From the NCBI RefSeq assembly GCF_023516435.1, contig NZ_CP097332.1, forward strand, positions 4,092,001-4,156,000: DNA of 64,000 nt. The letters are read 5' to 3'. This document shows, piece after piece, positions 5,156-49,296 of the stretch (its first letter is position 1; every line of letters starts with the position of its first letter). The stretch comes from Jatrophihabitans telluris (GTDB taxonomy: Bacteria > Actinomycetota > Actinomycetes > Mycobacteriales > Jatrophihabitantaceae). Both the position numbers and the translations under genes were made by a program. Under the pieces are notes generated by a model. The model was not told the DNA's origin, made no database searches, and saw only the letters and a program-made list of their open reading frames with translations.

Positions 5156-5318
5156 GCGAATGGGCAGTTCGGGCGCGAATGGGCGCGTGTAACTGCCCAT
5201 TGGCATCGGAACTGCCCATTCGCGCACGAGTGGCCGACAGGAGGGCCAGTCGGAACCGCCCATTGGCGTCGGAACTGCCCATTCGCGCACGAGTGGCCGA
5301 CAGGAGGGCCAGTCGGAA
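5156..5318. repeat. Repeat cluster B1 after clpB (core GCGAATGGGCAGTT)
   Basis: Two forward cores (5156-5169 and about 5173-5184) are followed by reverse cores (for example 5210-5224 and 5273-5287), so the array is an inverted cluster. Its right part is a 63-bp unit repeated twice in tandem (5193-5255 and 5256-5318) with only a few differences. It lies between the convergent clpB and the membrane-protein gene ending at 5346. The same core recurs after pckG (47895-47965). Possible role: transcript end structure or terminator; no T-tract is present. Confidence 0.75.
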
Positions 5319-46015: not shown

Positions 46016-47839
46016 ATGACTGCCACACTCGACCGATCCGTTGCCCCCACGACCCACACTGCCTTGCTGCAATGGGTTCAGGAATGCGCCGAACTCACCC
46101 AGCCCGAGGAGATCGTCTGGTGCGACGGTTCGCCCGAGGAGTGGACCCGCGTCACTGATCTGCTGGTGGAAACCGGCACGTTCGTGCGGTTGAACGCGGA
46201 CAAGAAGCCGAACTCCTTCTATTGCGCGTCCGACCCGACCGACGTCGCTCGGGTCGAGGACCGCACCTTCATCTGTTCGCGGGATTCCGCCGACTGCGGC
46301 CCGACCAACAACTGGATGGATCCCGACGACATGAAGGCGCTGCTGACCGAGCGCTTCCGGGGCTCGATGCGCGGCCGCACAATGTACGTCATCCCTTACT
46401 GCATGGGGCCGTTGAACGCCGACGAGCCGATGCTCGGGGTTGAACTGACCGACGCCCCGTACGTGGTCGCGTCCATGCACATCATGACGCGTGTGGGGAC
46501 GGCGGCGTTGGAGCTGTTCACCAAGGACGGCAAGGACGATCAGGAATTCGTCCCGGGCCTGCACTCGATCGGTGCCCCGCTGGCCCCCGGCGAGCCTGAC
46601 GTCGCCTGGCCGTGCAACGACACGAAGTACATCGTGCACTTCCCCGAGGAACGGCTGATCTGGTCGTACGGATCGGGCTACGGCGGCAACGCGCTGCTGG
46701 GCAAGAAGTGTTACTCGTTGCGCATCGCCTCGGTGAAGGCGCGGGACGAGGGTTGGCTGGCCGAGCACATGCTCATCCTGAAGCTGACCTCGCCCGCGCA
46801 GAAGTCCTATTATGTCGCCGCCGCGTTCCCGTCGGCGTGTGGCAAGACGAACCTGGCGATGCTCGACCCGACGCTGGAAGGCTGGAAGGTCGAGACCATC
46901 GGCGACGACATCGCCTGGATCCGCTTCGGCGAGGATGGCCGGATGTACGCGGTGAACCCGGAGAACGGCTTCTTCGGCGTTGCTCCGGGAACCGACTATC
47001 ACACCAACCCGAACGCGATGCGCACTATCGCGAAGGGCAATTCCCTATTCACCAACGTCGGCCTGACCGACGACGGTGACATCTGGTGGGAGGGCATGGG
47101 TGAGCCGCCGGCGCATCTGACGGACTGGAAAGGCCAGAGCTGGACGCCGGGTGGCGATGCCTTGGCCGCACACCCGAATTCGCGGTACTGCACGCCCATC
47201 TCCCAGTGCGACACGAAGGCCGCCGAGTGGGACGACCCTCGCGGTGTTCCGTTGGACGCCATCTTCTTCGGCGGGCGTCGCCGGGACACGATCCCATTGG
47301 TGACCGAGGCCCGCGACTGGCAGCACGGTGTCTTCATGGGCGCCACGCTCTCTTCGGAGACCACCGCGGCGGCGGTCGGCAAGGTCGGTGTCGTCCGTCG
47401 CGATCCGATGGCCATGCTGCCCTTCATCGGCTACCACGCCGGCGACTACTTCGCGCACTGGATCGAGGTCGGCAAGTCCGCCGACGCGGTGAAGTTGCCG
47501 AAGATCTTCTACGTGAACTGGTTCCGGCGCGATGAGGACGACAACTTCGTCTGGCCCGGGTTCGGGGAGAACATTCGGGTGCTCAAGTGGGCCATCGAGC
47601 GCATCGAAGGCAAGGCGGCGGCAGTGGACACGCCGATCGGACGCGTCCCGACTCCCGAAGCCCTCGACACCTCCGGACTGTCGATGGGGGCCGAGGAACT
47701 GACCACGGCGCTGGCGGTCGACCTCGACCAGTGGCGTAACGAGATCCCGAGCATCGAGGAGTGGTTCGCCAAGATCGGGGACAAGGTTCCATCGTCTCTG
47801 CGCGACGAGCTGGAGTCCCTGAAGCTGCGCCTGGGCTGA
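46016..47839 (+). CDS. pckG: Phosphoenolpyruvate carboxykinase (GTP)
   Basis: Converts oxaloacetate and GTP to PEP, CO2 and GDP, the entry to gluconeogenesis. 607 residues, normal for the GTP-dependent class. Seen are [17 protein letters not shown], the kinase P-loop with reactive Cys in [39 protein letters not shown] and [16 protein letters not shown] 46016 follows GAAGGAG five bases away; an upstream GTG is in frame but would lose that signal. Repeat cluster B2 follows the gene. Confidence 0.97.
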
Positions 47840-47894
47840 GGCCCTCGTCCCCCCTGCCGTCCCTGACGTCCCCTGCTTCCCCTGACGTCCCCAT

Positions 47895-47965
47895 CGCGAA
47901 TGGGCGGTTCCACCGCGAATGGGCGGTTGTACCCGCCCATTCGCGTTCAATCTGCCCATTCGCGA
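47895..47965. repeat. Repeat cluster B2 after pckG with strong hairpin
   Basis: Two forward cores (CGCGAATGGGCGGTT at 47895 and 47914) face two reverse cores (about 47931-47945 and 47951-47965). The inner pair forms a 13-bp perfect stem, CGCGAATGGGCGG with CCGCCCATTCGCG, around a short loop. Same family as 5156-5318 after clpB. It probably acts as a transcript end or mRNA 3' structure; no T-run follows. Confidence 0.78.
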
Positions 47966-48042
47966 TGGTGGGTGTGCGCGAGTGGCCCGGTCGGTGTGCC
48001 TGAGCGGCCCGGTCCCCGCGCGATTACCCGCGTCACCCCTTC

Positions 48043-48071
48043 TTGACAATTTCGGTGGGAATTAGGACTCT
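48043..48071 (+). promoter_or_regulatory. Promoter of leader peptide/TauE unit
   Basis: TTGACA (48043-48048), a 17-bp spacer and GACTCT (48066-48071) end exactly seven bases before the GTG of the leader peptide, so the transcript should begin at the leader start codon. Confidence 0.65.
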
Positions 48072-48078
48072 GGTAGAC

Positions 48079-48195
48079 GTGCTAGAGACGCCGAGTTCGA
48101 CCCGTCGGTCCTTGGCGACCCCTCGGGTCCGCCTCGTCCGGCGCCTGCACATCGACTTGATGCGCCTCGGTTCGGACTGTTGCCGGGACCGCTGA
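48079..48195 (+). CDS. Leaderless cysteine-type leader peptide (attenuator)
   Basis: A 38-residue small ORF starting with GTG at 48079. Its C-terminal half reads RLHIDLMRLGSDCCRDR, with two adjacent Cys codons (TGT TGC, 48178-48183). The RLHxDL...C pattern is that of the actinobacterial 'putative leader peptide' found before sulfur-assimilation genes. In mycobacteria, leaderless polycysteine uORFs of this kind make translation of the next gene respond to cysteine supply. A good promoter ends seven bases before the GTG. The next start codon (48249) is 53 bases after the leader stop. The regulatory role here is inferred. Confidence 0.75.
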   Translation: MLETPSSTRRSLATPRVRLVRRLHIDLMRLGSDCCRDR

Positions 48196-48248
48196 CCGCT
48201 CGCCGTCCCGAGTCCGTCCCGCCTCAGTCCCGAAGGTTCGTCCCCCTC

Positions 48249-49160
48249 ATGCATATCGATCTCGCTCTGTGCCTTGCCGGCGCGCTCGTCGGCCTCCTGG
48301 TCGGCTTGACCGGAATGGGCGGCGGCGCGTTGATGACGCCGTTGCTGGTCCTGGTCTTCAATGTCGCCCCGTTGGCCGCAATCTCCTCCGATCTGGTGAC
48401 CAGCCTGGTGATGAAACCGGTCGGGGCGGCGGTCCACCTGCGTCGCGGCACCGTCCAACTTCCGCTGCTCAAGTGGCTGGCGATCGGCGCCGTGCCCGCC
48501 GGCTTCCTCGGGGCCGTCCTGATCGGAACGCTCGGGCGCGCTGGCGCGGTCCAGTCCAAGCTGAAGCTGATCATCGGGATCGCGTTGTTGCTCTCGCTGG
48601 CCTCGACCGTGGTCCGCCAGCTCATCAGCCGCCGCTCCGGAACACCAGCCGCAGAGCTGGTCGTGCGTCCGGGACGAACCGTGGCTATCGGCGTCGTCGG
48701 CGGCCTCGCGGTCGGGCTCACCTCCGTCGGTGCCGGATCCCTGGTGATCGCGTTGCTCCTGCTGGCCTACCCGGGCCTGCGTCCCGGGCAGCTGGTGGGC
48801 ACCGACATCGTCCAGGCCATCCCGCTGGTCGGCGCCGCGGCTGTGGGACACCTGCTCTTCGGTGACGTCCATCTGGCCCTCACCGTGTCACTGCTCGTCG
48901 GCGCTCTGCCGGCCGTGTACGTCGGCGCCCGGCTGTCCGCCGCCGCTCCGGCGCCGGTCCTGCGATCGGTGGTGGCCGGCGTGCTGACCGCATCGGCTCT
49001 GGCGCTGCTCAAGGCACCCAGCGACGTACTGGTGCCCGCGGCGCTGGCCGCTGCCGCCGGTATGGCGTGGCTCAGCCGCCCCTCCGGCCGCGAAAACGAG
49101 ATCCAGGAGCGAACGGCCACACCGAAGCAGGCCGTCACTGTCGAAACCGTAGGGCGCTAG
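48249..49160 (+). CDS. TauE/SafE-family sulfite/organosulfur exporter
   Basis: 303-residue membrane protein with about eight helices. It shows the TauE repeat features GLTGMGGGALMTPLLVLVFNVAPLAAISSDLVTSLVMKPVGAAVHLRRGTV and the second-half counterpart GLTSVGAGSLVIALLLLAYPGLRPGQLVGTDIVQAI. The family moves sulfite, sulfoacetate or similar anions out of the cell. ATG 48249 begins the first helix; GAAGG lies about 12 bases upstream. The cysteine-type leader in front ties it to sulfur metabolism. The first ~20 residues of the longer frame are non-hydrophobic and omitted. Confidence 0.88.
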   Translation: MHIDLALCLAGALVGLLVGLTGMGGGALMTPLLVLVFNVAPLAAISSDLVTSLVMKPVGAAVHLRRGTVQLPLLKWLAIGAVPAGFLGAVLIGTLGRAGAVQSKLKLIIGIALLLSLASTVVRQLISRRSGTPAAELVVRPGRTVAIGVVGGLAVGLTSVGAGSLVIALLLLAYPGLRPGQLVGTDIVQAIPLVGAAAVGHLLFGDVHLALTVSLLVGALPAVYVGARLSAAAPAPVLRSVVAGVLTASALALLKAPSDVLVPAALAAAAGMAWLSRPSGRENEIQERTATPKQAVTVETVGR

Positions 49161-49296
49161 TCTCGCGCGGGAGACAGCGTTGTGGAGGGGTCCGTCGGGG
49201 CGTCCGTCGAGGCATCCGCGACGCCCCTCTCTGCACAACCGCTCACCCGCGCAACCGCCCATCTGCACACCCGATCACCCCACAACCGCACGGCCG

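Follow-up and report, generated by a model that had tools for sequence, protein, structure and literature searches.

The locus described here raises the question of why a short open reading frame (ORF) with cysteine codons near its end lies shortly before a lone gene for a TauE/SafE (TSUP) permease. It was found in a 64,000-nucleotide stretch of Jatrophihabitans telluris DNA, which is referred to as the window. The explanation that we consider probable, taken as a whole, is that a cysteine-responsive leader peptide, transcribed without a 5' UTR from a TTGACA promoter, controls the TSUP permease gene. The window leader is of a known kind, the actinobacterial cysteine leader peptide, and its target is little described.

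The earlier note on this DNA had read a TTGACA-N17-GACTCT promoter that ends 7 nt before the GTG of a 38-codon ORF with tandem Cys codons near its end, and all of these coordinates were confirmed. The two hexamers enclose a spacer of 17 nt, GACTCT is followed by 7 nt up to the GTG, and the ORF ends with RLHIDLMRLGSDCCRDR and an in-frame stop at 48193-48195, which leaves a gap of 53 nt to the ATG of TauE at 48249. TTGACA is present once in the whole window, counting either strand, and the mean of shuffled sequences is 11.55. The extended pattern TTGACA-N17/18-NANNNT also has a single match, where 0.49 would be expected and 39/100 shuffles contain one. Between 47500 and 49200, a sigma-70 scan (9 of 12 required) reported no promoter. 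The match in 39 of 100 shuffles, the weak -10 and the empty scan mean that the window promoter, taken alone, proves little.

Features of the leader and permease locus, in window coordinates
Feature	Position	Strand	Basis or remark
TTGACA, -35-like hexamer	48043..48048	+	sequence; TTGACN in the same place before 6/9 leaders, window included
GACTCT, weak -10-like hexamer	48066..48071	+	only positions 2 and 6 match TATAAT
Leaderless-type leader ORF, GTG start, 38 aa, VLETPSSTRRSLATPRVRLVRRLHIDLMRLGSDCCRDR (residue 1 read as Met)	48079..48195	+	
RLHIDLMR motif codons, conserved	48142..48165	+	leader alignments, motif search
Tandem Cys codons TGT TGC (Cys34, Cys35)	48178..48183	+	occupy motif positions 13 and 14, the latter being the conserved register
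Possible pairing between 48171-48179 (reaching into the first Cys codon) and 48225-48234 (next to the TauE RBS)	48171..48234	+	predicted, not above chance
GAAGG, possible Shine-Dalgarno, 12 nt 5' of the TauE ATG	48232..48236	+	sequence, interpreted
TauE/SafE (TSUP) permease gene, 303 aa, likely target	48249..49160	+	PF01925, tree

The window TauE gene is preceded by a gene for a GTP-type PEP carboxykinase and followed, on the opposite strand, by a uricase gene; there are no sulfur genes among these neighbours. No intrinsic-terminator-like site was found in 47500-49200. An inverted repeat (47891-47968; 36-nt arms, 86% complementary, 19-nt units, core CGCGAATGGGCGG) lies upstream of the leader promoter, after the PEP carboxykinase gene. 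A similar repeat cluster, with one mismatch each, lies at 5174-5287, and the exact core CGCGAATGGGCGG occurs seven times in the genome. The matches returned by an Rfam search were all sub-threshold, of microRNA type, and fell on the inverted repeat upstream of the leader. The N-terminus of the window TauE (48249-48263) reads MHIDL, and that of some relatives MHLDL or VHLDL; its resemblance to RLHIDL of the leader is probably due to chance.

By comparison with relatives, the ORF looks like a genuine translated leader. A hidden Markov model was made from seven leaders that precede related TauE genes, with the window excluded. When it was run against the 1,438 six-frame stretches that the window contains, the window ORF was the sole good match (E 1e-7), and the next best reached E 0.23. 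Over 13 codons in five leaders (window, L010, L014, L017 and L021), pS was 0.57 and pN 0.11; since codon changes are mostly synonymous, selection acts on the leader peptide. The pattern TTGACN-N17-NANNNT-N6/7-RTG, which like the leader register rule was formulated after the sequences had been inspected, has 6 matches in the 212,700 bases, both strands, of nine leader-TauE loci. All six are in-frame leader starts (window, L010, L014, L015, L017 and L021), and the -10-like hexamers at the same spacing in the five relatives are GACGCT, AATCAT, AACACT, CAGCAT and AAGCAT. The leaders of L018, L019 and L121 do not fit this geometry.

Relatives of the window TauE comprise 26 loci from a contig search, and matches were present in 19/150 relative genomes and 67/394 class-level genomes, the own genome being included in the latter two counts. 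The resulting tree contains 69 different TauE rows. Duplicates (L018 and L086), a TauE fragment without a visible leader upstream (L035) and rows that repeat L010, L011 and L031 (L068-L070) were excluded from it, as were the other TauE-family loci of the window genome (L087, L089 and L090), which have no tblastn match to this TauE. A single clade of 14 rows (support 95/89) contains every row that bears a leader. One rule was applied to all rows alike, namely H-x-D-x2-[RK]-x5-C with a stop no more than 9 codons on and 1-2 residues allowed between H and D. It found a leader in 9/14 clade rows versus 0/55 other tree rows, with row L133 offering just 44 nt of upstream sequence to search. In 39 further class-level stretches upstream of TauE, the same rule had no matches. 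Seven leaders end 43-66 nt before TauE, whereas the distance is 151 nt in L122 (the same as L018) and about 171-216 nt in L015, depending on the start.

The five clade rows without a leader are L011, L031, L012, L013 and L016. The match values of L010, L011 and L031 equal those of the same-genus genomes G007, G006 and G004, with which they are apparently identical; L011 and L031 thus apparently belong to the window's own genus. Within that genus (the own genome and eight others), four genomes have this TauE at E 1e-30, and two of the four have the leader. Some loci show other arrangements. L012 and L013, both Pseudonocardia, share an upstream frame that has a Cys close to its end (DLERFWPSRR...FDEFCRR and HLECFWPSRR...FDGLCPLR). 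In L159, L172, L175 and L185, which are among the 39 further stretches, an ORF with at least two Cys near its end and no RxHxDL motif lies shortly before a more distant TauE, and this may be another type of Cys leader. Moreover, a second TSUP subfamily, similar to the downstream TauE of L013, is found behind leaders of the group in four genomes (L050, L058, L061 and L062).

A comparison with annotated leader peptides, as the earlier note had proposed, gave a divided result, in that the window leader aligns to two NCBIfam models and stays below the cut-off of each. With NF042934 (cis_reg_atten, 'putative leader peptide'), it scored 18.8 bits (E 8.9e-4; cut-off 27), and 17.9 bits (E 0.02) in a six-frame search of the genome. 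With NF042936 (Ms4527A leader), the score was 15.3 bits (cut-off 45). All 19 positions of NF042934 align to residues 17-35 of the window leader. The same profile matched seven of the eight other TauE leaders scanned below its cut-off and gave no match to the remaining one. The window leader belongs to a working group that we call 'actinobacterial RxHxDL cysteine leaders', which is defined by RxH[VI]D[LF]xR, a Cys at position 14 of the motif and a stop no more than 22 codons from the motif start (in the window RLHIDLMRLGSDCC, with Cys at 13 and 14). As expected of this group, it stands, in relatives too, before the same gene or a sulfur-metabolism gene.

Three other leaders in the same genome do exceed the NF042934 cut-off, and each precedes a sulfur gene. 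Their targets are an APS kinase/CysD-type pair, a sulfite reductase gene followed by a PAPS-reductase-type gene, and a rhodanese gene. Matches above the cut-off were present in 174/200 genomes of the order and in 0/14 named control genomes, and with 174 of 200 genomes matching, the leader class is common in the order. These three leaders, together with the promoter geometry conserved at 6/9 loci, support the proposal that a leaderless-type Cys leader ORF belonging to the RLHxDL 'putative leader peptide' group is placed to control TauE. In L038, L040, L054 and L056, leaders of the form LVRRRHVDLRRTGSALC are followed by a conserved gene whose product is 483-485 aa long (VLVGAGPTAVGVLDRLLAH... 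in L038).

The position of the cysteine within these leaders is fixed. All 38 distinct leaders gathered by similarity that have a Cys after the motif carry it at motif position 14 (R of RxHxDL = 1). Because this set had been selected by similarity, a motif-only DNA pattern that demands neither Cys nor stop was run on 61 genomes, and at least 150 places were obtained. Among the matches listed (150 places), there were 149 distinct motif places, 72 of which have a stop 9-22 codons on; these short-tail places correspond to 60 distinct tails, the window included. The register RxH[VI]DxxRx5C, with Cys at position 14, was found in 57/60 distinct short tails and in 3/77 other motif places among the matches listed, and since the tail rows are related, 60 tails are not 60 independent cases. 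All nine TauE leaders conform to the register, L019 through its D and R. Counted back from the near-invariant Cys, the R, H, D and R of RxHxDxxR lie at distances of 13, 11, 9 and 6 residues. A single Cys follows the motif in 23/38 leaders, and the motif is kept at the amino-acid level while its codons vary.

The fixed spacing and the conservation at the peptide level suggest that the nascent peptide takes part in stalling. It is possible, and we put it forward tentatively, that leaders of this group act as cysteine-sensing arrest peptides and not as codon counters. The motif in the exit tunnel would sensitise the ribosome to a single Cys codon, and the same sensor would be reused before many sulfur genes, including the permease gene.

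RNA structure was also considered as the switch and was not adopted; no fold, accessibility or duplex test consistently beat chance across loci. The pairing predicted in the window has a pair probability of 0.95 at four pairs and lower values elsewhere, and it would fit masking of the RBS. Folding of the window RNA did not differ from shuffles (z -0.03; 97/200 shuffles fold at least as well). At seven TauE loci, the gain in RBS accessibility with a stalled ribosome was reached by 17 (window), 106, 181, 11 (L017), 67, 162 and 28 of 200 shuffles. The free RBS of L017 is less accessible than in all but 5/200 shuffles, which favours masking at L017; the other loci do not show this. Direct pairing between the Cys region and the RBS region, examined at nine loci, was above chance at L121 alone (19/500 shuffles).

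The leader might be a meaningless chance ORF, with TauE expressed from another promoter. The weak -10, the lack of RNA structure above chance and the two same-genus relatives without a leader would fit this, but the conservation, the register and the promoter geometry in other genomes make it extremely improbable. A different objection accepts the leader and reduces it to classical codon-count attenuation, in which the ribosome is stalled by the tandem Cys codons and RLHIDL contributes nothing by itself. Such attenuation would agree with the two adjacent Cys codons of the window and with the Cys-codon runs near the stop of mycobacterial cys leaders, as given in the accessible text of PMC1262725. 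It does not predict that Cys lies at one fixed distance from the motif, that most leaders manage with a single Cys after the motif, or that the motif is kept as amino acids over varying codons, and we regard it as rather doubtful as the only mechanism.

A further alternative keeps the leader and changes the role of its target. The earlier note had seen in TauE an unusual target, a sulfite exporter. The TauE/SafE identity of the downstream gene holds (PF01925, 128.6 bits, cut-off 32.6, profile positions 1-237 of 237), and it is the exporter reading that has been weakened. As an exporter, TauE would be a safety valve, induced with sulfate reduction to release excess sulfite. The Pfam family carries the sulfite-exporter name, and the TauE of L015 lies before a sulfite reductase gene, where sulfite could build up. 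However, discarding sulfur during a cysteine shortage would be odd, and the TSUP protein CysZ of C. glutamicum is required for growth on sulfate and sulfite. According to the portions available of PMC1266029, CysZ is a likely sulfate permease whose deletion stops growth on sulfate and sulfite and not on thiosulfate; its assignment to the TSUP family is taken from part of PMC5840216. The genes around TauE in L012, described below, also argue against export. Altogether, release of sulfite is unlikely, the earlier exporter reading is probably wrong, and export was not adopted as the default reading of TauE.

Sulfate-assimilation genes adjoin TauE in four of the 14 clade rows (L012, L013, L015 and L019), where CysD, CysN and similar names are inferred from Pfam domain and gene order. 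In L012, TauE follows CysD-type and CysN-type genes, and genes for an NMT1-type binding protein and an ABC ATPase lie downstream. TauE of L013 is beside a CysN-type gene and a second TauE; in L015, the sulfite reductase gene is downstream of TauE; and L019 has TauE near a divergent PAPS-reductase-type gene, CbiX and a tetrapyrrole methylase. In eight other clade rows, window included, no sulfur gene was recognised nearby (neighbourhoods inspected, mostly by eye, in all but L031). These four relatives and the CysZ precedent make uptake likelier than export, so that TauE would import a sulfur compound rather than release sulfite. Upstream of TauE in L019, the - strand carries two back-to-back leaders, one for TauE and one, VRLVARRHIDLMRVASAAVCAA, for the PAPS-reductase-type gene. 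In two Pseudonocardia loci, L017 of Pseudonocardia spinosispora (L017:1753-2241) and L021 (L021:1776-2270), a gene for an Rrf2-type regulator is transcribed divergently from the leader and TauE, and in both an NMT1-type binding protein gene follows TauE.

The window genome also encodes CysT/W-type sulfate ABC permeases (280.7 and 254 bits; cut-off 240), so that the reading of TauE as the only candidate sulfate importer was rejected. SulP had no match in the genome at E 1e-5. Two other full TauE-family genes are present, with no leader match near them, and no solved structure resembles the window TauE by sequence.

In the mechanism that we propose, the ribosome would begin at the 5' GTG and translate the leader. 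Under a shortage of Cys-tRNA, it would dwell at Cys codons 34-35, with RLHIDLMR placed at a constant depth within the exit tunnel. In this position, the ribosome would free TauE expression, either by unmasking the RBS or by blocking an early (e.g., Rho-dependent) termination. With ample cysteine, the ribosome would clear the leader, and TauE would stay low. TauE would most likely contribute to the import of sulfate or a similar sulfur compound, within a response shared with the leader-bearing APS kinase/CysD-type, sulfite reductase and rhodanese genes of the genome. The points counted against this proposal are the scores below the NCBIfam cut-offs, the leaderless 5/14 clade rows, the lack of structure above chance, of a terminator and of sulfur neighbours, and the presence of CysT/W.

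If the proposal is correct, a TSUP permease clade would join the genes under cysteine leader peptides. This clade would be linked to sulfur acquisition, despite the family label of sulfite export. In addition, a Cys register that is fixed across the order makes codon stalling alone versus sensing by the nascent peptide directly testable.

Cysteine leaders that precede cys operons have been described in Mycobacterium and in Propionibacterium acnes (Seliverstov et al. 2005; PMC1262725, available in part). The accessible text reports runs of Cys codons near the stop in the mycobacterial leaders, for which Rho-dependent termination was proposed. Like the window leader, these are short ORFs with Cys codons near the stop and no conserved terminator hairpin; they stand before cys operons or, in Bifidobacterium, before cbs, whereas the target in the window is a lone permease gene. 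Leaderless uORFs before cysA2, Rv0485 and nirA were reported in 2015 (PMC4633059, in extract), and a report from 2020 concerns regulation in response to cysteine in M. smegmatis (Canestrari et al., Mol Microbiol, as cited in the available parts of PMC9094748 and PMC13236596). For the permease, the nearest known case is CysZ of C. glutamicum, which like the window TauE is a TSUP-family membrane protein; it is linked to assimilatory sulfate reduction, as the window TauE may be. The CysZ gene is inside a cys operon, whereas the window TauE gene stands alone. In the accessible portions of the open-licence PMC literature, we found neither a cysteine leader before a TauE/SafE gene nor a fixed Cys register in such leaders.

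With the mycobacterial polycysteine leaderless short ORFs, as far as their descriptions are available, the window leader shares a predicted leaderless-type start, the Cys codons near the end, a sulfur gene downstream in relatives and the RxHxDL group. It differs from them in its TSUP permease target, in having two Cys codons, in showing no RBS-masking structure above chance and in scoring below the family cut-off. In arrest peptides such as TnaC and SecM, a fixed distance separates conserved residues from the stall codon that follows them. The window leader group resembles TnaC and SecM in this fixed distance, its stalling being predicted, and differs from them in that the signal would be a lack of Cys-tRNA.
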